Of a DNA stretch of 64,000 bases, positions 91 through 64,000 are shown piece after piece (position 1 is the first letter of the stretch; each line of letters opens with the position of its first letter). Location: assembly GCF_003464595.1 (NCBI RefSeq), contig NZ_QRZF01000016.1:1-64000 (forward strand), read 5' to 3'. Under the pieces are notes generated by a model that was given only the letters and a program-made list of their open reading frames with translations, did not search any database and had not been told where the DNA came from. This DNA comes from Bacteroides intestinalis. Lineage in GTDB: Bacteria; Bacteroidota; Bacteroidia; Bacteroidales; Bacteroidaceae. Made by a program: the position numbers and the translations under genes.

Positions 91-1689
91 TTAAAACCAT
101 CTCGGGTCTCCCGCCACTCCGGTTCCTGCAAATCCGGCACCTTGTTTGATGTGGAAATCACCATTGGCAGGATCCACAAACAAGCCATAGATATCTAGGT
201 TTACAACCGTAATATCATCCAGCGGACGAGAATCTTCTATTAAATCATTGGTCTTGTAAGAGCCACCATAGGAAATAGTAACATTGCTATAATTACCATT
301 CGTAGAGTGTAGCTTCTGACCACCATTAGGACCGGCAAAAATACAGTTTTCAATAGTCACAGTCGGTTTGGAGTTGTTGTCAAGTAACCAAAGGTGAGTC
401 ATCTTCTCTGCAATATTTACCAAAGTCACATTCTTGAATTTGATATCAGTCTTCACACGTATATCGGCAATACGGGTGTTGAATTCAGTCAATGTACTAT
501 TCGTAACATTGATAGCAGGAATTGTACAGCCTGAACCTACGTTGAGGAAACTCCAGCCACCAGTATTCGATACCCAACAGTTATTGAAGTTAACGCTATT
601 ACCTTCTGCACCACTATGGAGACGGACAGCAGAATTAACTTGTTTCACTTCACAGCCTTCAAAAGTAATATCGTGGAACTTCTGCGCACCTACCTGGAAC
701 ATAAATCCACCATCGGAGTTCATGCTGAGGTATTCAAAATTAACATCATTCACTTCGCTTTCGATAGCAAAATAAACTTTATTCAATTGAGACAACTTGC
801 CACTTGCATTTTCCGAACCAACGAAGCTAATATCCTGTATACCCATTGGAATTGTAATGGTTCCCTCCATATTAAATTCCATTCCAGATGCAAAATTCAC
901 AGTAACTTTTTTAGTCCCTTCAGCAGCATGCCCCGCCAAAGCCGTTGATATATCCTCAGCAGTAATACCAGGAATATTGATATTAAAAATCAGACTGCCG
1001 GACGAACCTGAAGTTTTCGTATTCAGCGTTCCACGCAATACTTCATTATAGAAAATCTGAGCAATATAAGGTACTCCCATATCCAGACCTTCAAATGTAG
1101 CAGCAGCATTTTGTATCTCAGCAGTAGTCAGCGCACGGTTTTCAACTACTGTACTATCTTCATTCATCAATACGAGATTCGTAACCCGATCTGTCTCTTC
1201 CCAAAGGAAAGTCAGGCTATTAACTGTAGGTCTGTAACTCCTGAATATTTGTTCCGCCGGAGTGGTAAAGGTAAATGAGCTCAACTTTGACTTTAATGAT
1301 GCATCTGCATTTTCAGCATGCATACGTACCCAATAATTGGTAGTACCATCAAGCCCTTCAAACCAAGTACGGTATTCTACTTTCATCGCTGTATTTGAAT
1401 CAGCAAACGGAGTCAGAGTATCAGCCAGAATAACAACAGATTTTTCAATCGTTGCAAAGTCGGCATCTTTACTGAATTCAAATATATAGTTAGCTGCGTC
1501 AACCACTCTGGTGTGTTTAATCTGGATGGAAGTAGGCTTCAACGTACTTGCCTCGAAAATCAAAGGCTTAAACAAACGGTTCTCACCGGTAGCCACTTCC
1601 CAATCGTTTACGTCACGGTCGCACGAAGAAAAGAGTGCGGCTGCCATGACAAGGGATGCGAATATGCTTTTAAGTTTCATAATCTTCAT
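91..1689 (-). CDS. DUF4957/DUF5123-type surface lipoprotein, pectin locus
   Basis: 532-residue predicted outer-membrane lipoprotein, the third gene after susC and susD and 23 bp from the latter. A signal peptide with lipobox ends at Cys23 (ALFSSC). Residues about 45-235 look like two fibronectin-III-type beta-sandwiches. Residues about 255-532 are rich in short Asn/Val/Ile turns typical of a right-handed beta-helix, matching the DUF4957 then DUF5123 arrangement found in Bacteroides pectin loci. Its position and pectate-lyase-like helix suggest a surface glycan-binding protein that presents galacturonan to SusCD, or a divergent lyase; no catalytic residues could be assigned. The family assignment is from memory of the architecture; binding is inferred. 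The downstream operon end is not visible. Confidence 0.8.
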   Translation of the reverse strand: MKIMKLKSIFASLVMAAALFSSCDRDVNDWEVATGENRLFKPLIFEASTLKPTSIQIKHTRVVDAANYIFEFSKDADFATIEKSVVILADTLTPFADSNTAMKVEYRTWFEGLDGTTNYWVRMHAENADASLKSKLSSFTFTTPAEQIFRSYRPTVNSLTFLWEETDRVTNLVLMNEDSTVVENRALTTAEIQNAAATFEGLDMGVPYIAQIFYNEVLRGTLNTKTSGSSGSLIFNINIPGITAEDISTALAGHAAEGTKKVTVNFASGMEFNMEGTITIPMGIQDISFVGSENASGKLSQLNKVYFAIESEVNDVNFEYLSMNSDGGFMFQVGAQKFHDITFEGCEVKQVNSAVRLHSGAEGNSVNFNNCWVSNTGGWSFLNVGSGCTIPAINVTNSTLTEFNTRIADIRVKTDIKFKNVTLVNIAEKMTHLWLLDNNSKPTVTIENCIFAGPNGGQKLHSTNGNYSNVTISYGGSYKTNDLIEDSRPLDDITVVNLDIYGLFVDPANGDFHIKQGAGFAGTGVAGDPRWF

Positions 1690-1712
1690 TTTTTAATTCT
1701 GTTGTCCGTTTA

Positions 1713-3734
1713 TTAATAACCATAGGAATTTACCAAAAAGCCCTTGGACTGATAAATATCCGTATCATAGATAGCATAAGGATGACGATAGTTACATGTT
1801 CCGTTGCCAATAGGATATTGTTTCAACATATCACCAATCTCACCACCATTCTTCAGTTTTCCAAGTAATGCACTATAGTCGTAAGATGCATTGATACCGG
1901 TAGCCATTACCAGAATCTTGGCAAGTTCGTCACGATAAGTAGTACCTGACCCGGTTTCAGGTTTCGCATAAGTTTTCGGGAACCAGTCTATCTTTTCATA
2001 ACCTGCAGGAGCCGTACCCAGTTCCTGATAATAATTAGGTGATGAATAATCCACATACAGCTTATCGTCTGTCCGCATCTTATAGTACAATACAGTCGGG
2101 AAATCCGAAGGCTGATAAGTCTTATCAAAGATGGTCACCGGATGTTGGTTATCAAGCATCAGGCAAAGACTTTCTTTCATAGCTTCAATCTTAGTATCTA
2201 GCAGTCCCCAACGAATCAGGTCCATTTTACGTACACCTTCACCACCAAATTCCCAGGCACGTTCATTCACAATAGCATTGAAGAAATCAGAATCATACTT
2301 CGCAATTTCAGAAGAACCGGAACCAAATGCACGCTCACGTACTTTTTCCAGAGCCTGACGGGCAGTCATACCTGCCGTTGTATTCTGATGATCCGGTCCG
2401 TAAAGCTCATTCATAGCCTCAGCAAACATCAGATAAATATCAGAATAACGCATTACAATCCAGTTGATACCGGTAGCCACACGACCGGCAGCAGCCAGGT
2501 GAAGGGCACGATAGGTTTCGCTAGTCCAGTACATACGCCATTTAGCATAGTGTACATTCGTAGCATTCAGACTGAAATCCTCATAATTCTCTTTACGCCA
2601 GCGACCGAAAGTCAACGTTACATCACGGCGCTTATCCGTCTTACCGAAAGAATAGAAGTAATAAATTGTAGAAGTTACATAGCTACTACCCATACCTTGC
2701 TGTCCGTACATAGAACCTTGTTGAACTTCCCAACCCATCAGAGTACCTACGTCACCGGTATTACCTACACCTAAACCAACTTCATAAAGGTTTTCATTAT
2801 AAGGATTCTGATCCAGATGATTTACTGTTTTCCAGATATTCTCAAAGTCAGGGTCCAATTGATGCGGATTCTCAGGATCACCCAGGATTTCAGCACATTG
2901 TTTAGCTGCTATTTCATAGTACTCTTTGTAGTTCTTCACACGACCTACATAATATCCGTTCATTTCGGGGATGGTAGGATGTTTCTCCAGCTGCATATCC
3001 GGGAATTGATTACCATCACGCAGTGACCAGCCACCTGCAAACAAAGCCACACGTGCCAACAGGCCTTTAGCAAAACCTTTGCTGATACGTTCCGCAGTAG
3101 AAGCTTTACCACTACCTAACCAAGGCAGATATTCGATAGCTTCCTGCAAGTTCTTCACAAGATCGGAGTATACAGTATCACGGTCGATCTTACCGATATA
3201 TACATTGGAAAGGTCAGAATTGGAAGTTGTTTTCTTATAAGGAATATCTCCATAGATACGCACCAATTCAAAATAAGCCAATGCTCTCAGAGTCAAAGCT
3301 TCACCCAGTAACGGCTTGCCGACAGTCGGGTTTGTCTTCAGTAATTCACCTTCACGCATTCCTTCTACGGCAGCGGAAGCAAGTTCTGCAAAACGGAAGA
3401 TATTATTCCAACGAGTGGTAGAGTTACCGGAATTACCATAATAGTGGTTCTGACCATAGTCGCTGTTTACTTCTTTATAGTTAGTCAGATAAAGATTACA
3501 AGTCTCCGTATCACTGATATTCTGCCAGTTCACAGATATTTTCTGTCCATAAACATACGTATCGGACATAGTAGCATAAACTCCCATCAGGGCAGCCTCG
3601 GCCATAGCCTCGGTATTGAACACATTTGTGTTACTTTGTTTGGAGGGGGTGTCAGTTGCCAGGAAATCATCACATGAAGTAGTGATCAGCATGGCAGCTG
3701 CCAAAGTTAATATATATAATTTCTTCATGATCAT
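1713..3734 (-). CDS. SusD/RagB family glycan-binding lipoprotein
   Basis: 673-residue SusD homologue that should cap the SusC transporter at the outer membrane and bind pectin oligosaccharides. Signal peptide and lipobox end at Cys21 (MLITTSC). The N-terminal half carries the helical TPR-like scaffold (for example GEALTLRALAYFELVRIYGDIPY near residue 150), and the C-terminal region contains the family signature ERAWEFGGEGVRKMDLIRW near residue 500. It starts 9 bp after susC stops, so the two are co-transcribed. An ATG two codons further in (MKKLYIL) is an equally good start. Substrate is inferred from the neighbouring PL1 and CE8 enzymes. Confidence 0.95.
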   Translation of the reverse strand: MIMKKLYILTLAAAMLITTSCDDFLATDTPSKQSNTNVFNTEAMAEAALMGVYATMSDTYVYGQKISVNWQNISDTETCNLYLTNYKEVNSDYGQNHYYGNSGNSTTRWNNIFRFAELASAAVEGMREGELLKTNPTVGKPLLGEALTLRALAYFELVRIYGDIPYKKTTSNSDLSNVYIGKIDRDTVYSDLVKNLQEAIEYLPWLGSGKASTAERISKGFAKGLLARVALFAGGWSLRDGNQFPDMQLEKHPTIPEMNGYYVGRVKNYKEYYEIAAKQCAEILGDPENPHQLDPDFENIWKTVNHLDQNPYNENLYEVGLGVGNTGDVGTLMGWEVQQGSMYGQQGMGSSYVTSTIYYFYSFGKTDKRRDVTLTFGRWRKENYEDFSLNATNVHYAKWRMYWTSETYRALHLAAAGRVATGINWIVMRYSDIYLMFAEAMNELYGPDHQNTTAGMTARQALEKVRERAFGSGSSEIAKYDSDFFNAIVNERAWEFGGEGVRKMDLIRWGLLDTKIEAMKESLCLMLDNQHPVTIFDKTYQPSDFPTVLYYKMRTDDKLYVDYSSPNYYQELGTAPAGYEKIDWFPKTYAKPETGSGTTYRDELAKILVMATGINASYDYSALLGKLKNGGEIGDMLKQYPIGNGTCNYRHPYAIYDTDIYQSKGFLVNSYGY

Positions 3735-3743
3735 TAGTTTTTT

Positions 3744-6700
3744 TTAGAGTGTCAGGTTAATACCAAATAAGAATGAATGAGCTTTCGGATAAGCAGAGTA
3801 GTCAACACCCGGAGTCAATGGAGTGCTGCGGCGGGTATCTACCTCAGGATCTTGTCCGGAATACTTTGTCCAGCAATGCAGGTTGTAACCAGTGAAGTAC
3901 ACACGCAACTTCTCAACCAGGAATTTCTTAGTCCAAGCCTTCGGTAAAGTATAACCGATTGTAAGATTACTCAGGCGAAGGAATGAACCGTCTTCGATTG
4001 CATAGTCCGTCATGACCGTGGAGTTCATCAACGGATGCCAGATCGTAGCATTCTGGTTGATTTCCTGCAAACGTGCCGGATTCGCATATTCACCATACAT
4101 GATATTGTAGCCGGTTTCAGGATCGATAGTGGTAAAACGCTTACCCAAAGCCATATCGCTACTCAGATTCTGATACTTTTTGGAACCTGCATAGGTAGTA
4201 TTATCTATTTTATTGGCATTCAGGATATCATTACCATAACTCCAGTTGAACTGTACACCAAAATCGATGCCTTTATAGTCCGCATTGATATTGAAACCAC
4301 CGGTATGTTTCGGCATGGCATTACCAATGACGGTACGGTCATTCGTAGTGACTTTATCAGAGCCATCATCCGTCAATTTCTTCAGTTTCATGTGTCCGGG
4401 ACCAAACCAGTTACCGCTGGTTGCGATAATATCACTACAATCGGCTACACCCGGTTTAATGATCCAACGTTTCGTTTCTTCGTTAAAAGTAAAGTCATCG
4501 AAAGAATAGAAACCATCTTGTTTGTAACCATAGATCTGACCAATGGATTTACCTACAATGGCACGATAATCATCCGAACCGATACTTACTCCCCAACCGG
4601 AAGTAGCGATCATAGAGTCGGAACCATCCAGTTTGTCAACAGTATTGCGGTTGAAAGAGATATTGAAACCCAATGACAAGTTGAAGTCCTTAGTTTCAAC
4701 GGCATACCAGTTAGCAGTCAACTCCACACCTTTGTTAGTAGTCTGTCCCAAGTTGCGGTATTGAGTACCGTAACCGGAATGAGTCGGGATATCCACAGCC
4801 AGAATCAAGTCCTTAGTTACATCTTTATAAGCATCGATTACCACATTCACTTTATCATTAAAGAAACCCAGGTCCAAACCGATGTTGGCAGAAGTCTTGG
4901 TTTCCCAAGTCAGGTTCTCGTTACGGAGTGTATTGGTTGGTTTCAAACCACTTTGCACTTTCTCACCGATATAGTAGAGTCTGTTTGCAGAGCTTTCGAA
5001 ACTGTATTGCTGACGCCAGTAAGAACCTACACGTGCATTACCTACTTGTCCGTAACTTAAACGAAGCTTAGCATTAGAAAGCCAACTTTTAGTAGCCTCC
5101 ATAAAAGGCTCCTCAGACAGACGCCATGCCAAAGCACCGGCGGGGAAGAAACCCCATTGTTTGCCCGGAGCAAATACGTTTGTACCATCTTCACGAGCTG
5201 TGAAAGTCAGATAGTAACGGTCTTTCAACGTATAGTTCAGACGACCGAAGAAAGAAGAGGTACGTGACGGCTCACCTATATCATTATAAGTAGGCAATGG
5301 TTCACCATAATTCCACATAGCCAATACTTGTTCTGCTGTAAAGTCTTTCGGGAAGAATTTGGATTGCAGGGTCATCTTGTCCGATTTACCGGAGAAAATT
5401 TCCTGTCCCACCATAATATTGAAGCGGTGATCTTTTGCAACCGTAAAGTCATACGTCAGATGATTCTGTATCGTGAAACGGTAACCATCAGTATATTCAC
5501 GTTTGGCAACGGGCTGTCCACCATTAGCATTAGATTCACCGGTCTTCTTCAACCAGATATTATCCGTATGTGCTTTCTCGTAAGAGTAACTACCCTGAAC
5601 GCGATAATCCAAACCTTTGATGATATGGAATGTCAAACCGACATTATAAGAATTAACAAATGAGTACTGTTTCTTAAACTCATTGGTAATGTTGTAAATC
5701 GGGTCATTCAACATACTGGCAGATTCTGCCCAGTCAAGTTCCTCGCTGGTACCCACCAGATTCTCCATAGACAAAGTAGTTATACTCTTTATCGGAGCAT
5801 ACTTGACACCATCACGGAGCTTACGGCCACCGGAAACATCGGGACCATCAATTACCGTATTCGTGGTACGGGCTGTAACGTCCAGATCAATGACTTTACC
5901 AAAAGATTTATTCAGCTTAATGTTGAAGTTATCACGTACATAGTTAGAGTTCAACATGATGTAATCTTCATCATCACGTGTATAACTGATATTGTAGCGC
6001 ATGGTTTCCGTACCACCCGAAAGCGATACATTGAAATTCTTCTGTACGCCGGTATTGCCGTAAAGCTGATCCTGCCAGTCGATGCCTTCACGATATTTGT
6101 AAAGGTCTATATCATCCCACATACCATACATGCTATAGAAGCCTGCGCTGGATACATTCGGGCTCGAGTCGATTTCCTTCTGATAATATACATATTCATA
6201 AGGAGAAAGGACATCCGTCAGATTATAGGTCTTCTTTATACCAACATAAGAGTTCACATCTACCACCGTCTTACCGGCTTTACCACTCTTAGTAGTTACC
6301 AGAACCACACCATTAGCACCCTTGGCACCATAGATTGCCGTAGAAGAAGCATCTTTCAATACACTGATATCCTGAATGTCACCGGGAGGAATATCATTAA
6401 TATTCTTCACGATAAAGCCATCTACGATATAAAGCGGAGAATTATCCTGAGTAATAGAACCACCACCACGTACACGTACTTTGATTTCAGCATCGGGAGA
6501 ACCATCCGTTACCGTTACGTTCACACCTGCCAGATGTCCGCTCATAGCCTGCAAGGCAGAAGTTACAGGGATATCTTTCAGTACCTTGTCGTTCATAGAA
6601 GAAACAGAACCTGTCAGGTCTTTCTTCTTCATCGTACCGTAACCTACAACAACTACTTCATCCAACATCTTAGAGTCATCCTGAAGCTTAATACTCAGTA

Positions 6701-6974
6701 TCTTCCCGGCAATGGCATCTATCTCCTGGGCCTGCATACCTATATATGAGACAACCAGTTTCTTACCTTTGCCACTGACCTTCAGAGTAAAATCACCGTT
6801 TATATCGGTAATTGTTCCGTTACCGGCATTACCCTTTTCTACAACGGATGCACCGATAACACCTTCTCCCGTGGAGTCTGTCACATTACCTTTAACAGTA
6901 ATCTCTTGTGCAGACAGTCCGATAGGAACCATCAACAGTATAGCCATTAGCCATACAAAACACTTGTTTTTCAT
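3744..6974 (-). CDS. SusC/RagA family TonB-dependent outer-membrane transporter
   Basis: About 1076 residues from the chosen start, which gives a clean signal peptide (MKNKCFVWLMAILL...LSAQ); an in-frame ATG at 7046 would add 24 residues without a signal character and lies over the promoter. After the signal comes a carboxypeptidase-regulatory-like domain (VKGNVTDSTGEGVIGASV), a TonB box/plug region (DEVVVVGYGTMKKKDLTGSV, then the RGGGSIT and LYIVDGF signatures of SusC proteins) and a long beta-barrel ending GINLTL. It imports oligosaccharides handed over by SusD. First gene of the susC-susD-lipoprotein operon, with its own promoter at 7035-7089 and a terminator of the preceding operon at 7128-7158. 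Closely similar in plug signature to the SusC at 53161. Confidence 0.96.
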   Translation of the reverse strand: MKNKCFVWLMAILLMVPIGLSAQEITVKGNVTDSTGEGVIGASVVEKGNAGNGTITDINGDFTLKVSGKGKKLVVSYIGMQAQEIDAIAGKILSIKLQDDSKMLDEVVVVGYGTMKKKDLTGSVSSMNDKVLKDIPVTSALQAMSGHLAGVNVTVTDGSPDAEIKVRVRGGGSITQDNSPLYIVDGFIVKNINDIPPGDIQDISVLKDASSTAIYGAKGANGVVLVTTKSGKAGKTVVDVNSYVGIKKTYNLTDVLSPYEYVYYQKEIDSSPNVSSAGFYSMYGMWDDIDLYKYREGIDWQDQLYGNTGVQKNFNVSLSGGTETMRYNISYTRDDEDYIMLNSNYVRDNFNIKLNKSFGKVIDLDVTARTTNTVIDGPDVSGGRKLRDGVKYAPIKSITTLSMENLVGTSEELDWAESASMLNDPIYNITNEFKKQYSFVNSYNVGLTFHIIKGLDYRVQGSYSYEKAHTDNIWLKKTGESNANGGQPVAKREYTDGYRFTIQNHLTYDFTVAKDHRFNIMVGQEIFSGKSDKMTLQSKFFPKDFTAEQVLAMWNYGEPLPTYNDIGEPSRTSSFFGRLNYTLKDRYYLTFTAREDGTNVFAPGKQWGFFPAGALAWRLSEEPFMEATKSWLSNAKLRLSYGQVGNARVGSYWRQQYSFESSANRLYYIGEKVQSGLKPTNTLRNENLTWETKTSANIGLDLGFFNDKVNVVIDAYKDVTKDLILAVDIPTHSGYGTQYRNLGQTTNKGVELTANWYAVETKDFNLSLGFNISFNRNTVDKLDGSDSMIATSGWGVSIGSDDYRAIVGKSIGQIYGYKQDGFYSFDDFTFNEETKRWIIKPGVADCSDIIATSGNWFGPGHMKLKKLTDDGSDKVTTNDRTVIGNAMPKHTGGFNINADYKGIDFGVQFNWSYGNDILNANKIDNTTYAGSKKYQNLSSDMALGKRFTTIDPETGYNIMYGEYANPARLQEINQNATIWHPLMNSTVMTDYAIEDGSFLRLSNLTIGYTLPKAWTKKFLVEKLRVYFTGYNLHCWTKYSGQDPEVDTRRSTPLTPGVDYSAYPKAHSFLFGINLTL

Positions 6975-7034
6975 TTCTACAGATTTTTGTTTCACATTAA
7001 TAAAGGATTTAGTTTCACATATTTTTTCCTGTTG

Positions 7035-7089
7035 CAAAGGTGACAATTTGTAGGTGGAGAGAGGAGTAAAAACTATCGGAAAAAGAGGA
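7035..7089 (-). promoter_or_regulatory. susC promoter with putative pectin-regulator element
   Basis: On the minus strand a CACCTTTG box (7035-7042) resembles the Bacteroides -7 element TAnnTTTG. Exactly 18 bp upstream lies a 29-bp element (7061-7089) that matches 21 of 29 positions with one at the same place before the pectate lyase gene. The conserved core on the minus strand is a pair of T-rich blocks (TTTTTCC and TTTTTAC) about 12 bp apart, as expected for direct half-sites of an AraC-type regulator. There is no recognisable -33 TTTG, consistent with an activator-dependent promoter. Confidence 0.6.
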
Positions 7090-7127
7090 AAATATCTGTT
7101 ATACCAATAAATACAAGGGGGTTACAC

Positions 7128-7158
7128 AAAAAATCCCGGACTTTCACAAGCCCGGGAT
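7128..7158 (-). terminator. Rho-independent terminator after PL1-CE8 operon
   Basis: ATCCCGG (7133-7139) pairs with CCGGGAT (7152-7158) around a short loop. On the minus strand the stem is followed by six T residues. It lies between the CE8 stop and the susC promoter, so the enzyme operon and the susC operon are separate transcripts. Confidence 0.85.
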
Positions 7159-7209
7159 CCCACATGCAAAAAATGTCAATGTATTATAGTGCCATTACGA
7201 TTCATTAAC

Positions 7210-8511
7210 TTAAAGAGCACTCTCAAGTCCTAATGAACCATAACGATTGACTGCACATACTTTTAAATTTCCTTTCATCACGGATCCTGTTTCGAAAACC
7301 GGCTTTTGGGCAAAACCTACTACCTGGTCATTGTCGAAAATGATATAACCGGCAGCATCGGATACAGCTTTCCAAGTAATCTTCGTTCCTTGTTTTTTCA
7401 GATTCTGCGGAGCCGGTAGTTTTTCCATCATTGTACGAGGATCCCATCCGTCATTGCCCGGAATGATACGTTCGTATACATAGCTATCCGCCTCCTCTTT
7501 GGTAACGGTAGCACGACAAGAGCCTTTCGGCGGGTTATTCGGTCCGCGTCCGTCATATTCTGTTTTGCGTAGGCTCAAGTCGAGTACATTACCTTCGGCA
7601 TCACGACTATCATACTCTGCAAATAGTCCGGGAATAGCTCCCATATTGGTCCAACCCTCGGGAGCAAGGGGAATACGCATAGTGGTATGTATATAGACAG
7701 CACGCGGCGAGTTGTGCCAAGGACGTCCCAACTTCTGTTTACCGTCGGCAGCAGAGGCATTGCCATCCACAATGCAATCACGGAAAATATATCCGAACTT
7801 TGCATCCTTATGACAGGGAGCGACAATTACAGAACCGCTACGTACATTATATAATGTACAGTTTTCAAGTAAAGCATCTCCCCCGCCATAAAAGTAATCG
7901 ACTGCACCTTCAATCCAGCAGTCTTTCACATAGTGGCGGTGAGAATCATTGGTAGAAGTCATCCAGGTGTCCTGAAAAGAACGGAAAATGCAGTTATTGA
8001 ACGCTGCACAATCTGCCTGACTGCTCATAGCCAATGCCTGTGGACCATTCTGGCTCTCTACCCCCCAATCGTTCACATAAGAGATATTCTCAGTATAGAA
8101 ATGATCGGCTTTCACCTTAACAACGCTCCCCTCAAACTTATAGACTTCGGAAGAAGGATTATGAACAGAATGTTTCCAAAAAGCCGTCTTTGCCGGTTCT
8201 GTACCTTCTTCAGGCTTTCCACCTACATTCAGGAGATGATGAATGATGGTTTTATCCTTGTCCTGACCGATGAGGTGGACATACGTTTTGGTTTCGGGTA
8301 TTACCACGTGTTCCCGGTACGAACCGTTCTTTACGAAAATCAACCACGGCTCTTGCCGGTTGTCGGGTACTGCATCAATAGCAGCCTGAATGCTTGTGTA
8401 GTCACCACTGCCATCCTGGGCCACTACAGCCTGAAATGGCGATGCAGTATTCCGGGCATGGCCTCCTAATAAAATGCCCATAAATAATGCTGTAAGAATT
8501 ATCTTCTTCAT
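7210..8511 (-). CDS. Pectin methylesterase, carbohydrate esterase family 8
   Basis: 433 residues with a signal peptide (MKKIILTALFMGILLGGHA), so likely periplasmic or surface. It removes methyl esters from homogalacturonan, making it a substrate for pectate lyase. The CE8 beta-helix hallmarks are in order: GSGDYTSIQAAIDAVP (34-49), QNGPQAL (154-160), SFQDTW with general-acid Asp181, VDYFYG with nucleophile Asp205 (canonical VDFIFG), and LGRPW with Arg263. The last 60 residues form a small fibronectin-like tail (PAPQNLKKQGTKITWKAV...). It starts 30 bp after the PL1 gene stops, so the two form one operon under the PL1 promoter. Confidence 0.94.
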   Translation of the reverse strand: MKKIILTALFMGILLGGHARNTASPFQAVVAQDGSGDYTSIQAAIDAVPDNRQEPWLIFVKNGSYREHVVIPETKTYVHLIGQDKDKTIIHHLLNVGGKPEEGTEPAKTAFWKHSVHNPSSEVYKFEGSVVKVKADHFYTENISYVNDWGVESQNGPQALAMSSQADCAAFNNCIFRSFQDTWMTSTNDSHRHYVKDCWIEGAVDYFYGGGDALLENCTLYNVRSGSVIVAPCHKDAKFGYIFRDCIVDGNASAADGKQKLGRPWHNSPRAVYIHTTMRIPLAPEGWTNMGAIPGLFAEYDSRDAEGNVLDLSLRKTEYDGRGPNNPPKGSCRATVTKEEADSYVYERIIPGNDGWDPRTMMEKLPAPQNLKKQGTKITWKAVSDAAGYIIFDNDQVVGFAQKPVFETGSVMKGNLKVCAVNRYGSLGLESAL

Positions 8512-8541
8512 ACTTAATATATTTAATAATTGGTTTGAATT

Positions 8542-10092
8542 TTACTTTACCAGGCCGTTCAGATAAACTTCCAGATTGGTATAACCTTCTTTACTCAATG
8601 TAGTGGCAATGCCGTCGGAAACCTCTTCCGGATTCAGTCCATGGGCCGTTTCCCAAACATCGGGTATGCCGTCGCCATCAGTATCCCGCAGTTCATCGAC
8701 TATAATGCCGTCATCACTCAATGCAGGCCAGGGGCTGGTGGCTCCTTCCGGTTTCACATCTGCCGGCAAGTCTATCAGGCCGGGAACACTTTCCGCTCCT
8801 TTTGTCACACTACCGATATAGGTAGCCGTACCGTTTCTGGTTTCTTCTATAACACGTATATCAATGGCATCCCGTTGCCTGGAGCATCCGGCTTGGTCCA
8901 ATACGAGTTCATAAGCTTGTTTTGCACTATGAGTAGTGATAATGCCTGCATCCAGAGGTTCGGACAGACGCATTTCCTTTTTCACTTTCTTTGTGAATGT
9001 ATTGTCACAAGAAGCATTATTGATTTGCCCGTAAATTCCTTTGGTCCAGTTATCTTGGGTTACTTCCTCATTTCCTTCGATGACATTGCCGTCTACATAG
9101 AGTTTCCCCCATACGTGTTCCATCGGTTTCCAAGCATTGGGAGTGCCGTCTGCATTCGTGCAATACTTCTTTGTGCGTACTCCTATGGCGGCAATACGGT
9201 AGCGGACAGGGCTGTTTTTCGGTGTAGCCGGTCCCGGTTTATAATAATTGTTCACAATATTGATATACATGCCTTCTCCACCATAGCAACCGTTTCCGGC
9301 CCAGTTGTAGAACACGTTATTCCTCATATCCATGTGTTCGCGTTCCTGAGTAAAAGGACGGGGCCCCAGACGGGGTACACGGCTCTCGTGGTGTGCCAGC
9401 AGATTATGATGAAAAGAAGCTTTTGCCCCTCCCCAGATGGCTCCATATCCATGTTTACCTTTGGCATGACCTGCCGTGCGAAGACTTTCGGAGACCAAGC
9501 ACCATTGAACAGTCAGATTCTCACCACCATATATGGAACAACATTCATCTACCGACCAACTGATAGAGCAATGGTCAATGATTAAATTCCTGCAATCCGT
9601 ACTTCCAAGTCCGTCAGGCTCTCCACCTCCTTCGTTGCCTACACGAAAGCGTAGATAGCGGACTATTACATTATCAGCATTGATCGTTACCGGATAACGT
9701 GCTATACAGATACCTTGTCCCGGCGCACTCTGCCCGGCAATAGTTAAATCTCCATTAGCGATATCAAGGCGTTTATCCAGGAATATCGTTCCGGCTACAT
9801 CAAAGACAACCGTACGTGTTCCCTCCTGTGAAAGGGCGTAGCGCAATGTCCCTTCCTGCAGACCATCTTCCAAAGTCGTTACATGATAGACTTTGCCTCC
9901 ACGACCACCTGTTGTATTCCGCCCGAAGCCTTCGGCGCCGGGAAAGGCTATCAATTCCTTTGTTGTTTCCGTTTGTTCGTCATCAGGCAGGATACTCGCT
10001 CCTGCCGGTATGATTGGAAGCAGGAATAAAGCCAGACATAAGAAACATATAATGTACGCCCCTCTCATTCTGTTTTTCATTTTGTTTTTCAT
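8542..10092 (-). CDS. Pectate lyase, polysaccharide lyase family 1
   Basis: 516 residues from the chosen start, which begins directly before the basic and hydrophobic signal peptide; an upstream ATG at 10143 would overlap the promoter. The enzyme cleaves homogalacturonan by Ca-dependent beta-elimination. The motif AFPGAEGFGRNTTGGRGG opens the beta-helix, WSVDECCSIYGG and ESRVPRLGPRPF (catalytic-type Arg) follow, as in Bacteroidetes PL1 enzymes. The C-terminus carries DTDGDGIPDVWE, a Ca-binding thrombospondin-3-like or dockerin-like loop frequent at the end of Bacteroidetes lyases. First gene of an operon with the CE8 esterase. A secreted or surface location is inferred from the signal peptide. 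Confidence 0.93.
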   Translation of the reverse strand: MKNKMKNRMRGAYIICFLCLALFLLPIIPAGASILPDDEQTETTKELIAFPGAEGFGRNTTGGRGGKVYHVTTLEDGLQEGTLRYALSQEGTRTVVFDVAGTIFLDKRLDIANGDLTIAGQSAPGQGICIARYPVTINADNVIVRYLRFRVGNEGGGEPDGLGSTDCRNLIIDHCSISWSVDECCSIYGGENLTVQWCLVSESLRTAGHAKGKHGYGAIWGGAKASFHHNLLAHHESRVPRLGPRPFTQEREHMDMRNNVFYNWAGNGCYGGEGMYINIVNNYYKPGPATPKNSPVRYRIAAIGVRTKKYCTNADGTPNAWKPMEHVWGKLYVDGNVIEGNEEVTQDNWTKGIYGQINNASCDNTFTKKVKKEMRLSEPLDAGIITTHSAKQAYELVLDQAGCSRQRDAIDIRVIEETRNGTATYIGSVTKGAESVPGLIDLPADVKPEGATSPWPALSDDGIIVDELRDTDGDGIPDVWETAHGLNPEEVSDGIATTLSKEGYTNLEVYLNGLVK

Positions 10093-10125
10093 ATATACTC
10101 TCTTTTTAGATTGGTTCATGTGATG

Positions 10126-10180
10126 CAAAAGTGAGGAATCCATAGTAAAAAGAGGGGGAAAAACTGATAGAAAAGGGGGA
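10126..10180 (-). promoter_or_regulatory. PL1-CE8 operon promoter with shared element
   Basis: A minus-strand CACTTTTG box (10126-10133) in the -7 role, with a 29-bp element (10152-10180) exactly 18 bp upstream. The element shares 21 of 29 positions with that of susC, including an invariant AAAAACT block and flanking GAGG and GGA (plus-strand reading). The identical spacing argues for a common activator, probably a hybrid two-component regulator outside the window to the left. Confidence 0.6.
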
Positions 10181-10227
10181 CTGATGCTATAAAACGGCGA
10201 AAATCACTTATCAAACTGCATTCATAC

Positions 10228-40235: not shown

Positions 40236-40324
40236 CTGAAATGCCGCCTATCTTATTTAAAGATATGAACTTCCTGCATAAAAACCCCGAAAGTGTGCAA
40301 AGAAAAGGCCAAAACCACAAAAAA

Positions 40325-40379
40325 TCCACCTAAACCAACAAATTGTGCACATGGTTTCAGCTAAAGCCCGATACATTTG
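40325..40379 (+). promoter_or_regulatory. GH28 operon promoter with element shared with right-hand susC
   Basis: TACATTTG -7 box (40372-40379). Upstream, CCACC-TAAA (ending about 40334) and AACAaATNNTnCACAT (about 40337-40352) occur at the same distances, within 1 bp, as in the susC promoter at 53044-53098. Confidence 0.55.
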
Positions 40380-40450
40380 CAAACGGTAATTAAGAGGTTT
40401 TTTCATAATATTTATTTAAGGTTAGAATTAGGTTAACTTATTATTTCTTT

Positions 40451-50298: not shown

Positions 50299-50405
50299 TT
50301 TCTTTTCCGTATTGCGTCATTTTTACTCCTTTTTAGCCAATTATTACCCCTCAGAATGCCTTAAACTGCCTAACATTGCAATCGAAATACCAAAAATGAA
50401 AAACA

Positions 50406-52889
50406 ATGATAAAGAAATGGTTATTAGCATGCTTCACAGTTGTTTGTGCCGGAACTAATCTACAGGCACAGCAAGAAGATCAAACCCTCAAACTATGGTA
50501 CGACAAACCCGCCACACAATGGGTGGAAGCTCTGCCATTAGGTAACGGACGTATAGGCGCCATGGTTTTCGGCGATCCGGTACACGAACAGTTCCAGTTG
50601 AACGAAGAAACTGTGTGGGGCGGTTCTCCCCACAACAACACCAACCCCAAAGCTAAAGATGCCCTGCCTCGTATCCGCCAGCTCATCTTCGAAGGTAAGA
50701 ACAAAGAAGCACAAGCGCTTTGCGGCCCTACCATTTGCTCGCAATCAGCCAATGGAATGCCTTATCAGACAGTAGGTTCACTGCATCTGGACTTCGACGG
50801 TATCAATGAATATAATGACTATTACCGCGATCTGGATATAGAAAAGGCAATTGCTACCACCCGCTTCACAGCCAATGGTGTGACTTATACGCGAGAAGCC
50901 TATACCTCCTTCCCCGATCAGGTATTAGTGATCCGGCTGACGGCTTCACAAAAGAAAAGTATCTCATTCACAGTTAAATACAGCACTCCTTATAAAAGTG
51001 GTGTGGTACGCTGTATCTCCCCCCGCAAGGAATTGCAACTGAATGGAAAAGCCAACGATCATGAAGGCATTGAAGGAAAAGTAGAATTTACCGCACTTAC
51101 CCGTATAGAAAACAACGGTGGAAAGTTGGAAATGCTATCAGACAGCACTCTACAGGTAAAAGACGCGAACAGTGTTGTACTGTATGTTTCCATCGGAACC
51201 AACTTCGTGAATTATAAAGACGTTTCGGGTGATGCCCTCAATAGCGCACAACAATATCTGAAACAGGTTAATAAGAACTACACAAAGAGTAAGACTTCAC
51301 ATATCAATGCATACCAGAAATACTTCAACCGTGTATCTCTGAACTTGGGAAGTAATGCTCAGATCAATAAGCCGACGGATGTACGTGTAAAAGAGTTCAG
51401 CAGTAGTTTCGATCCGCAGATGGCTGCCTTGTACTTCCAATTCGGACGTTATCTCTTAATATGCAGTTCCCAACCGGGTGGACAGGCTGCCAATCTGCAG
51501 GGTATCTGGAACTACCAACTGCGTGCTCCCTGGGATGGCAAATATACCACTGACATCAACGTTGAAATGAACTATTGGCCAGCTGAAAGCACTTCTCTGC
51601 CCGAAATGCACGAACCTTTCCTGCAATTAGTGAAAGAAGTAGCCATACAAGGACGTGAAAGTGCAGCCATGTACGGTTGTCGTGGCTGGACGCTGCATCA
51701 CAACACAGACATCTGGCGCAGCACAGGTGCTGTCGACGGACCAAGTTATGGTGTATGGCCTACCTGTAATGCCTGGTTCTGCCAGCATCTTTGGGACCGG
51801 TATTTATTCTCCGGTGATAAGAACTATCTCTCCGAAGCATACCCTCTGATGCGTGGTGCCTGTGAGTTCTACCTCGACTTTTTGGTACGCGAACCGGAAA
51901 ACAACTGGTTGGTAGTTGCCCCCTCCTACTCTCCGGAAAATAGTCCTGTAGTAAATGGACAACGCACATTTGTCGTTGTTGCCGGTACCACTATGGACAA
52001 TCAGATGGTTTACGATCTTTTCTACAACACCATTGCCGCAGCCAAGCTAATGAACGAAACAACCGCTTTCACCGACAGTCTGCAGACTGTTGTCGACAAT
52101 TTAGCACCGATGCAGGTAGGCCGTTGGGGGCAGTTACAGGAGTGGATGCACGACTGGGATAATCCTAAAGATCGTCACCGCCATATTTCCCATCTCTGGG
52201 GACTGTATCCGGGACGCCAGATCAGCGCCTATCATTCCCCTGTCCTGTTTGAAGCTGCCAAGAAGTCTTTGATTGGACGTGGTGACCATTCTACGGGCTG
52301 GTCGATGGGATGGAAAGTTTGCTTATGGGCTCGTCTGCTGGATGGTAACCATGCTTATAAACTGATTACAGACCAACTGCACCCCACCACTGATGAAAAG
52401 GGGCAAAATGGTGGCACCTATCCAAACTTGTTCGATGCTCACCCGCCTTTCCAGATTGACGGTAACTTTGGCTGTGCTGCCGGTATTGCCGAAATGCTGG
52501 TTCAAAGCCATGACGGTGCTATCCATCTTCTTCCTGCTCTACCTGACGTATGGAAAGAAGGAACGCTGAAAGGTATCCGTTGCCGTGGTGGATTTACTGT
52601 GAATGAAATGAAGTGGGAAAACGGTAAGTTACAAACCGCCGTTATCGCCTCCAATATTGGTGGTACACTCCGTATCCGCACTCAGACTCCCTTGTATCTG
52701 AATGGGGAAAAATTGAGCCCAACTACGCAAGAAGTGTCCGACAACCCGCTTTTGCAATCACAGAGCATCCGTAAGCCATTAATTGCCGCTAATGCTCCAA
52801 TTTGCATACCGGAATATGCACAGACTTATGTCTATGACATTGAAACAAGTGCAGGGAATGAGTACATTCTAACATCAAAAGAGCAATAA
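50406..52889 (+). CDS. Glycoside hydrolase family 95 (alpha-L-fucosidase or alpha-L-galactosidase)
   Basis: 827 residues with a signal peptide ([21 protein letters not shown]). The N-terminal beta-sandwich opens with [16 protein letters not shown] and [10 protein letters not shown], family hallmarks. The (alpha/alpha)6 barrel has HHNTDIW (around 431-437) and [27 protein letters not shown] with acid-type Glu579. GH95 members are inverting 1,2-alpha-L-fucosidases or alpha-L-galactosidases; pectin loci use the latter and fucosidases on side chains. It is transcribed alone, with a terminator at 52954, but stands within the pectin locus. Confidence 0.94.
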
Positions 52890-52986: not shown

Positions 52987-53043
52987 TATATAACATCATA
53001 TAGGTTATTCACAAAAGCATATTAGACAGCAAATAACAAAAAA

Positions 53044-53098
53044 TACCACCCTAAAAACAGATATTACACATTTATCTTTTTACATCCATATACATTTG
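53044..53098 (+). promoter_or_regulatory. Right-hand susC promoter with shared element
   Basis: TACATTTG -7 box (53091-53098), 62 bp before the susC ATG. CCACC-CTAAA (ending about 53055) and ACAGATATTACACAT (to about 53071) lie at the same distances, within 1 bp, as in the GH28 promoter. Confidence 0.55.
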
Positions 53099-53160
53099 CA
53101 GCAAAGAATTAACAGTGTGCACGAACACACTAACGAAAAAAATCATACTTAATTAATAAC

Positions 53161-61823: not shown

Positions 61824-61849
61824 AAGGGGCGTTATTTTTTCAGCCCCTT
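61824..61849. terminator. Weak convergent hairpin between GH140 and sensor
   Basis: AAGGGGC (61824-61830) and GCCCCTT (61843-61849) form a stem with a 12-nt loop overlapping the last codons of the sensor gene. The T runs are short; it might serve either strand. Confidence 0.4.
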
Positions 61850-64000
61850 ATCTCTATACTCAGTAGGTGTCATTCCCATCTTCTGTTTAAAGCACTTACT
61901 GAAATAACGCGGATCATTGATGCCCACCATATAAGAAATCTGAGTCATGGAATACTCTCCGGTTTCAATGAACTGGACAGCGCGTTTAATACGCATTTCT
62001 TTGATAAACTCAATAGGTGCCAATCCGGTCAGCGTCTTCAGCTTTTTGAAGAATACAGAACGGCTGACAGCCAACTCTTGCACCAGATCATCTACCACCA
62101 ATTCACCATTATCCATATTTTTTTCCATCAGGTCTACCAGTTTATCCATAAACTTACGGTCGTTAGGAGACATTTCAGGACCTTTTTCTTCCACTGTTTC
62201 TTCTTCGGAAATAGTAGCAGAAGTTCCAGTCATTAAGTTATCGCGATAAATGCCCTGCAGCTTCTGACGTTGAGTAAGCAGATTCTTTACACGTGCTTTC
62301 AGGTAAGTAGCACTGAACGGTTTAGTAATATAGTCATCAGCTCCATACTCCAAGCCTTCCAGTTTGCTCTCAATGGAAGTCTTGGCTGTCAACAATACAA
62401 TAGGAATATGGCTGGTCGTCATGTCCGCACGCAATTCACGAGTCATAGCTATGCCATCCTTTTCGGGCATCATCACATCACTGATAATAATATCCGGTAA
62501 GAATTTCAAGGCTTTACTCCAACCTTGCATACCATCTACAGCTTCCACAATCCTGTATTCGGAAGCAAAGATACTGCGCAAGAACAGGCGGAGTTCCGAG
62601 TTATCTTCCACAAGCAGCATCGTTCCTTTAGCATCTGTATCTTCTTCGGTCTCATCCGGAAGGCTTTCCTCTTCCGACTGATTGGGGACTTCACTAAGTA
62701 TGTCCGTCACTTGTTCTGCAACTCCCATACCCACAGTAGTATCATCCTGTAAGAATTCCACTGTTTCATCATAGTGTTCTTTTCCTTTCAGGAAATCTAC
62801 TTTAAAACAACTACCCTCGCCCAATTTACTATCAACCGTAATAACTGCCTTGTGCATCTCCACCAGTTCTTTCACCAACGACAAGCCAATGCCTGTACTG
62901 GACTGATTGAACAAGTTACGATCTACCAGATTTTCAAAACGGACAAACAATGATTTTTTATTATTATCCGCAATACCTATTCCCTGATCTTCCACACCCA
63001 CGGAAACTGTCTTTTCATCTTCACGCACCAGAACTGTAATCATCTTCCCATTTGGAGTGTACTTAAAGGCATTGGAAAGCAGATTGAATACTATTTTCTC
63101 AAACTTATCAACGTCCACCCACAGATATAATTCCTCCTTCTCTGTTTCAAACAGGAAGTCTATCTGATGTTCTTCGGCAACCGACTCAAAGTTTTCCATG
63201 ATCTTACGGGTAAAAGTAACTACATTTATGCGTTGCACCTGCATCTTCATCTTCCGGTTCTGTATCTTCCGGAAATCCAGAATCTGATTGATAAGCCTCA
63301 ACATACGGTTCGTATTCCGTTCCACCACCTGCAATTGCTCACGTGCATCAGCCGGAAGTTTCGTATTCGCCAGAACGTATTCCACAGGCCCCGAAATCAG
63401 AGTCAACGGAGTACGCAGTTCGTGAGAAATATCTGTAAAAAAGCGCAGCTTCATATCTGTCATTTGTTGTTCTACAGATACTTCATGTTTCAGACGATAA
63501 ATGGTGAACAGGATATAAACAGCCGTCACAATAATCAGTATAACGAAAAGCACATACAGGAAGTAGGCAAACGGAGTTTCCCAGAAAGAAGGAAGAATCT
63601 CAATATTCAGTATGCGCGTGTTTTCCGTCCACACTCCGTCTCCATTGGTCGAACGAACCTTAAAGATATAGTGTCCCTTCGGCAAGTTGGTATAGGTTGC
63701 AGCACGTTGCTTGCCAACAAAGTTCCAGGCTTTTTCAAAACCTTCCAGAATATAAGCATACTGAATTTCAGAAGGTGCGGAATAATCGAGTGCAGCGAAC
63801 TGAATCGTGAAAATATTCTCCCGATGGGATAATACCAGTTCTCTCGTATCATCCAAACCTTGTTTCAAAACCGAACCCTGTCCCGGTTGTACATCCTCAT
63901 TGGCTATCAATAATTTAGATAATACAATCGGCGGTACATAGTTACTTTTACAAATAGAATCCGGATTAAAGTAAAAGATACCTGTATTAGCTCCGAAAAG
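61832..64000 (-). CDS. Hybrid two-component sensor-regulator (HTCS), 3' part, cut by window end
   Basis: The frame is open to the window edge; upstream codons read LFGANTGIFYFNPDS, sensor-propeller sequence, so the real start is beyond 64000. Visible domains in order: end of a periplasmic propeller, the Y_Y_Y domain (FTIQFAALDYSAPSEIQYAYILEGFEKAWNFVG), a transmembrane segment (TPFAYFLYVLFVILIIVTAVYILFTIY), a histidine kinase (FFTDISHELRTPL with phospho-His; ATP-binding region GVEDQGIGIAD and STGIGLSLVKEL), a receiver (LLVEDNSELR, phospho-Asp in IISDVMMPEKDG) and an AraC-type DNA-binding domain at the C-terminus. It likely senses a pectin oligosaccharide and activates the right-hand locus. Confidence 0.95.
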   Translation of the reverse strand, partial: LFGANTGIFYFNPDSICKSNYVPPIVLSKLLIANEDVQPGQGSVLKQGLDDTRELVLSHRENIFTIQFAALDYSAPSEIQYAYILEGFEKAWNFVGKQRAATYTNLPKGHYIFKVRSTNGDGVWTENTRILNIEILPSFWETPFAYFLYVLFVILIIVTAVYILFTIYRLKHEVSVEQQMTDMKLRFFTDISHELRTPLTLISGPVEYVLANTKLPADAREQLQVVERNTNRMLRLINQILDFRKIQNRKMKMQVQRINVVTFTRKIMENFESVAEEHQIDFLFETEKEELYLWVDVDKFEKIVFNLLSNAFKYTPNGKMITVLVREDEKTVSVGVEDQGIGIADNNKKSLFVRFENLVDRNLFNQSSTGIGLSLVKELVEMHKAVITVDSKLGEGSCFKVDFLKGKEHYDETVEFLQDDTTVGMGVAEQVTDILSEVPNQSEEESLPDETEEDTDAKGTMLLVEDNSELRLFLRSIFASEYRIVEAVDGMQGWSKALKFLPDIIISDVMMPEKDGIAMTRELRADMTTSHIPIVLLTAKTSIESKLEGLEYGADDYITKPFSATYLKARVKNLLTQRQKLQGIYRDNLMTGTSATISEEETVEEKGPEMSPNDRKFMDKLVDLMEKNMDNGELVVDDLVQELAVSRSVFFKKLKTLTGLAPIEFIKEMRIKRAVQFIETGEYSMTQISYMVGINDPRYFSKCFKQKMGMTPTEYRDKGLKK

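Follow-up and report, generated by a model that had tools for sequence, protein, structure and literature searches.

A direct repeat with a 21-bp period, set 18 bp from -7-like boxes, is a predicted operator for a pectin-sensing regulator in Bacteroides intestinalis

Hybrid two-component systems (HTCSs) are main dietary-fibre switches in gut Bacteroides, and few of their operators have been mapped. Among the closest described cases are the HTCS_Rgu-1 sites, predicted in 2013 for BT4111/BT4124 in the B. thetaiotaomicron pectin locus BT4108-23, with an operator of two 12-bp sites separated by a 9-bp spacer (PMC3878776). A gel shift further showed binding of a BT4124 response-regulator fragment to the bt4114 promoter (PMC11253607), pectin induces a related pectin locus in B. 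xylanisolvens (PMC4769552), and DNA-binding profiles of BT4124 are being mapped (PMC13037399), all as given in the available excerpts of these papers. Here we describe a promoter element in a 64,000-nucleotide stretch of Bacteroides intestinalis (NZ_QRZF01000016.1, positions 1 to 64,000; hereafter the window), where it precedes two transcripts of the left-hand locus, one starting with a susC-like gene and the other with a pectate-lyase-like gene followed by a pectinesterase (CE8) gene. We consider it very likely that this element is a 36-bp operator at which a pectin-sensing HTCS like BT4111/BT4124 would dock through its AraC-type domain, occupying the -33 region.

On the minus strand, the sequences at 7061-7089 (before susC) and 10152-10180 (before the lyase gene) are identical at 21 of 29 positions, and each is separated by exactly 18 bp from a CACNTTTG-type box, i.e., the -7-like boxes CACCTTTG at 7035..7042 (spacer 7043-7060) and CACTTTTG at 10126..10133 (spacer 10134-10151). 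Both the match and the equal distance had been noted in an original prediction made from this DNA and were borne out. The likeness is rarely reached by chance: dinucleotide shuffles of both 90-bp upstream stretches matched in register at 21/29 or better somewhere in 3 of 20,000 trials, and shuffling only the two 29-mers reached 21/29 in 37 of 100,000. Random pairs drawn among 196 promoter-like stretches of lyase-relative loci reached 21 in 1,052 of 295,206 draws (0.36%), a figure that is an upper bound because orthologues stayed among the 196 stretches. The aligned element is longer than originally given, extending to 7096 and 10187; the predicted operators thus span 36 bp each, at 7061..7096 and 10152..10187.

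The 29-mer makes up most of a direct repeat, whose half-site reads approximately TTTTnCnC and whose period is 21 bp. Over 26 sites (near copies included), the top internal lag was 21 bp, with an identity of 0.55 that was attained in 0 of 2,000 shuffles, compared with 0.46 at lag 20, 0.43 at lag 22 and 0.37 at lag 12. The window's own sites gave lag-21 identities of 9/15 (susC), 8/15 (lyase) and 10/15 (a GH95 site described below). In the susC operator the half-sites are TTTTCCTC (7085-7092) and TTTTACTC (7064-7071), 21 bp apart on the minus strand; in the lyase operator, on the same strand, they are CAGTCCCC (10176-10183), the upstream and degenerate one, and TTTTCCCC (10155-10162). Being 21 bp apart, the half-sites therefore lie on one face of the DNA. 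Two T-rich blocks about 12 bp apart had originally been proposed as half-sites; this arrangement was rejected, as lag 21 beats lag 12 over the 26 sites, and lag-12 identity is 8/24 in both the susC and the lyase site.

Conceivably, the element is merely T/C-rich promoter-proximal DNA kept for its composition, with no specific regulator, since the coding strand of both the susC and the lyase site is rich in T and C, and an mraZ-region hit and other non-pectin hits (see below) occur. We regard this as very unlikely: composition-keeping shuffles seldom match, none of 2,000 shuffles attains the lag-21 identity, and the spacing to the box is exact.

The available excerpts of PMC7366714 give the sigma-ABfr promoter consensus as TAnnTTTG at -7 and TTTG at -33. 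The boxes CACCTTTG, CACTTTTG and TAACATTG (the last that of the GH95 site) each carry one or two changes from TAnnTTTG, with C in place of T at position 1 or A in place of T at position 6. If these boxes are assumed to be -7 elements, the operator lies over the -33/-35 region at a fixed 18 bp, a class II-type geometry, and its downstream half-site ends approximately at the expected -33 contact; a class II-like activator replacing the -33 element is thus the best reading.

We next consider the box-free profile R1, which comprises 36 columns covering only the element and was built from nine training sites, L009 being dropped as a near copy of L002; these training sites had been gathered by anchoring on the box. 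Of 11 lyase upstream stretches inspected, five entered the promoter comparison, and of eight susC stretches, four. Both left-locus operators are training sites and score 25.9 bits. In the window, R1 also matched a third predicted element that is not a training site, at 50317..50352 on the plus strand (18.9 bits, E 1.3e-4), with half-sites TTTTACTC (50321-50328) and TATTACCC (50342-50349) and, 18 bp after it, the -7-like box TAACATTG (50371..50378, plus strand). Behind it lies a GH95 gene (50406..52889, plus strand; Pfam PF22124). The same site recurs in five genomes (G001, G002, G003, G045 and G058), with TAACCTTG at 18 bp in all five.

Two transcripts of one locus with the same layout might also owe their similar promoters to recent copying of one from the other. 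Yet element and box are alike in the susC, lyase and GH95 promoters while their spacers and leaders are dissimilar, and such unalignable flanks speak against recent copying; the element is, moreover, kept though susC is only 58-59% identical between species. Copying is therefore an extremely unlikely explanation.

R1 was searched in three genomes of relatives and in 60 genus genomes, 16 of which had a match at E<=0.05. The three-genome scan yielded 52 matches, 30 of them with loci, and the 60-genome scan yielded 29 rows with 22 new loci; the examined set comprised 51 hits, 29 from the former (L096, on a cut contig, being excluded) and the 22 from the latter. With the -7-like box defined as A..[ACT]TTG[CT], which has a background rate of 0.0022 per position, a box stood exactly 18 bp from the hit in 30 of the 51, the next commonest distance being 8 bp (n=3). 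Once near copies were removed, 16 of 34 were at 18 bp and every other distance occurred at most once. After dropping four training promoters and the near copy L116, 11 of 29 remained at 18 bp; for 12 of 30, the binomial p is 1e-24. A further scan outside the 51-hit count had the box at 18 bp in 7 of 29 hits examined.

These hits lie mostly before pectin-type operons. In the three close genomes there were 16 hits at E<=0.13, and 12 of these fell at the two pectin-type loci or a pectic-lyase operon: lyase, susC and GH95 (three each), the left-locus lipoprotein-susC operon (two) and a GH116 / CBM6 / pectic-acid-lyase operon (one). Training promoters or near copies account for six of these 12, and the lipoprotein-susC operons were assigned to the pectin locus by position alone. 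The box was at 18 bp in 11 of the 12 (the GH116 site is without the A) and in none of the other four, two of which lie 5' of mraZ and two are intergenic (the latter pair has it at 17 bp). Sixteen of the 22 new hits from the 60 genomes had the box at 18 bp, and the other six had no box there; the targets with the box were lyase, pectinesterase, susC, GH95, GH3 and lipoprotein genes and one malic-enzyme gene, nine being identified by Pfam and the remainder by sequence likeness. In G158, a site stands at the head of an operon with susC, pectinesterase and GH28 genes. Lower-scoring hits that keep the 18-bp box stand before a GH2 gene flanked by genes of the arabinofuranosidase and GH43 types (L105) and before a susC adjoining GH92 (L092). 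The expectation that a genome scan would hit pectin genes only thus proved right for most targets in the relatives' genomes and wrong in its exclusivity, given the 4 of 16 hits elsewhere and the malic-enzyme gene. Separately, G002, G003 and G058 (L091, L093 and L136) have a near-perfect half-site repeat at 21 bp, which lies approximately 382 bp ahead of an mraZ-like gene and has no -7-like box at 18 bp.

This target range also bears on whether the element is instead bound by a global regulator, for example Cur (BT4338), which is known to control many polysaccharide utilization loci according to the available excerpts of the literature. The targets are mostly limited to pectin-type operons near this type of HTCS and the site is a direct repeat; judged by target range and repeat form, Cur is a very improbable candidate.

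Conservation at orthologous promoters was followed in lyase relatives, of which the best 80 of 172 loci were compared. Gene order from the lyase to the DUF4957 gene is the same in B. stercorirosoris (L001), B. timonensis (L002), B. cellulosilyticus (L009) and B. fluxus (L007). In the first three, both promoters carry the element at 18 bp from a box, CACTTTTG before the lyase gene and GACTTTTG / GAATTTTG before susC; in B. fluxus, susC has the element at 18 bp and so does the lyase gene, with TATTTTTG. Among 79 lyase upstream stretches, those with a site and a box at 18 bp include these four and L005 and L006, the spacing is 19 bp in L004, no site was found in the lyase upstream stretch of L010 or L011, and most of the distant lyase loci are without it. 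Beyond the named Bacteroides species, an element of this kind also stands before a susC-like gene in a Bacteroidales metagenome-assembled genome (L015), upstream of GATCTTTG.

As for the regulator, the window ends 90 bp past the DUF4957 gene, before the position at which relatives carry an HTCS. In G001, this HTCS (1,479 codons; propeller, kinase, receiver and AraC-type domains) lies less than about 1 kb beyond the DUF4957 gene; in G002, a 1,481-codon HTCS comes after a 336-codon open reading frame (ORF); and in G003, it follows a GH3 gene, its frame broken in the assembly. The break in G003 (L114 5632-10097) falls before the receiver end and may reflect a sequencing error or a pseudogene. On the far side of the HTCS, all three genomes have a further element, which would drive a lipoprotein-susC operon. 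Compared with PDB chain 12aw ('hybrid two-component system protein'), the receiver/DNA-binding part of the G001 protein reaches 398 bits, and in a hand tally of the 60 genomes, an HTCS at E<=1e-90 to 12aw was present in 9 of 11 genomes with element and box versus 12 of the 49 others (p 0.0007).

These observations suggest that the element is probably the docking site of a sugar-sensing activator. The original interpretation is upheld in part. A single AraC-type activator for both left transcripts is well supported, through the recurrence of element and spacing, the mostly pectin-type targets and the HTCS found in relatives; the half-site arrangement and the exclusivity of the targets needed correction. 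In the mechanism we propose, an HTCS expected just left of the window would sense periplasmic pectin oligosaccharides, become phosphorylated and bind the 36-bp operator as a dimer through its AraC-type domain. The downstream half-site, whose end lies about 18 bp ahead of the -7 box, would then replace the -33 element, such that RNA polymerase is recruited to promoters without a good -33 box, and one regulator would control susCD, lyase-CE8 and, 40 kb away, GH95.

Several points weigh against this proposal. A site with a box at 18 bp is found in only 9 of the 79 lyase upstream stretches, most of the others being distant loci, and 21 of the 34 non-redundant R1 hits have no box at 18 bp or only elsewhere. 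Two genomes (G049 and G061) have element and box and no close HTCS. In G145, which encodes an HTCS with 99% identity to chain 12aw, the site near it is weak (22.3 bits). Finally, the window's own left HTCS position falls outside the window, and two or three paralogous HTCSs are candidates.

The last of these points leads to the possibility that another HTCS reads the sites, be it a second left paralogue, the right-hand HTCS, or several jointly. A second HTCS does lie about 16 kb from the first in G001, sites shared by BT4111 and BT4124 have been proposed (available excerpts of PMC3878776), and the third site sits in the right-hand locus. Nevertheless, the right-hand HTCS is less like 12aw (290 bits) than the left one, and the promoters of GH28 and the right-hand susC share with each other a sequence that differs from this element; we see another HTCS as a possible but rather doubtful reader, and continue to favour the HTCS expected just left of the window.

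These two right-hand promoters hold possible operators of a second type, the next two window matches of a full matrix, both on the plus strand and with TACATTTGC at 18 bp: one before the GH28 operon (40318..40380, 14.0 bits) and one before the right-hand susC (53037..53099, 13.7 bits). The reversed window reaches as much as 20.8 bits, more than either score, and neither is therefore significant alone. The first candidate recurs before the GH28-position gene in G001 and G002, and the right-hand susC candidate in G001, G002, G003 and G058. They may be operators of the right-hand HTCS (61832..64000, minus strand; Pfam PF02518, PF00072, PF12833 and PF00165), which has histidine kinase, receiver and AraC-type domains and whose frame is open to the window end, where it runs off. 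Candidates of the right-hand locus were also seen at L204 (G001:C63:227814), L206 (G002:C1:327757) and L207 (G003:C61:416334), with TATTTTTGC at 18 bp and scores of 24.7, 22.3 and 16.6 bits, respectively.

The genes of the left locus all lie on the minus strand. The susC transcript begins with a SusC-like TonB-dependent receptor (3744..6974; Pfam PF00593, PF07715 and PF13715), followed by a SusD-like protein (1713..3734; PF07980 and PF14322) and a DUF4957/DUF5123 protein (91..1689; PF17161 above and PF16318 below cut-off). The second transcript encodes the pectate-lyase-like protein (8542..10092), originally assigned to PL1, and the pectinesterase (7210..8511; PF01095). The lyase call is weak, with Pfam PF13229 and the NCBIfam pectate lyase PelZ (116.7 bits) both below cut-off. 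Program-called ORF starts at 7046 and 10143 lie upstream of the boxes, making ATG 6974 and ATG 10092 the likelier starts. Both transcripts fit operons of a homogalacturonan locus. Relative to L001, L002 and L009, SusC is 58-59%, SusD 52-54% and the DUF4957 protein 31-33% identical, and the lyase and pectinesterase 82-83%; the transport genes look as if they had been exchanged beneath a retained promoter element (window 91-10143). The window susC is 97% identical to that of G045 over 471 residues.

The 18-bp spacing may extend beyond this element. We tentatively propose, at somewhat less than even chances, that HTCS promoters of the Bacteroidota share one rule, in which a direct repeat with a 21-bp period ends 18 bp before the -7 box, the activator replaces -33, and paralogues change only the half-site letters. 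The second-type candidates of the window, which combine another sequence with TACATTTGC at the same distance, hint at such a rule. Similarly, the lyase promoters of two Sphingobacterium species (L014 9858-9920 and L021 9874-9936) carry the repeat CAATTTTTAGTA / CAATTTTTGGTA, 12/15 at lag 21 and ending 18 bp before TATCTTTG, i.e., other letters in the same geometry, as noticed post hoc. A general lag-21 test over 32 non-redundant boxes before susC-like genes was weak (0.427 at lag 21 versus 0.392 at lag 12), and its five clear cases all belong to the left-element motif. Were the rule true, sequence could reveal the targets of many orphan HTCSs and where their transcripts start. A fixed distance would sharpen operator prediction, suggest transcript starts and hint at how such regulators act on promoters without a -33 box, and here it would tie a GH95 gene, which lies 40 kb off in a second pectin-type locus, to the regulator of the first.

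Of the known systems, AraC at araI1-I2 likewise uses half-sites in direct orientation, spaced about 21 bp, of which the downstream one adjoins the promoter's -35 contact. Unlike AraC, a soluble arabinose sensor that loops DNA, the regulator proposed here would be a membrane HTCS acting on the Bacteroides -33/-7 promoter type. The likeness to BT4124 and bt4114 lies in a pectin-locus susC promoter bound, in another species, by this kind of HTCS (excerpts of PMC11253607, which give no site position relative to the promoter). HTCS_Rgu-1 shares with our element the pectin locus, the AraC-type HTCS (here in relatives) and a direct repeat with a 21-bp centre distance (12-9-12), a likeness in geometry and locus type. 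A fixed operator-to--7 distance was not met in the available excerpts of the literature on such sites, subscription papers and supplements aside. The kind of site is, then, already in print, and the rigid 18-bp spacing is a new detail; compared with the excerpts of PMC3878776, the GH95 target and the distance to the -7 box are found only here.

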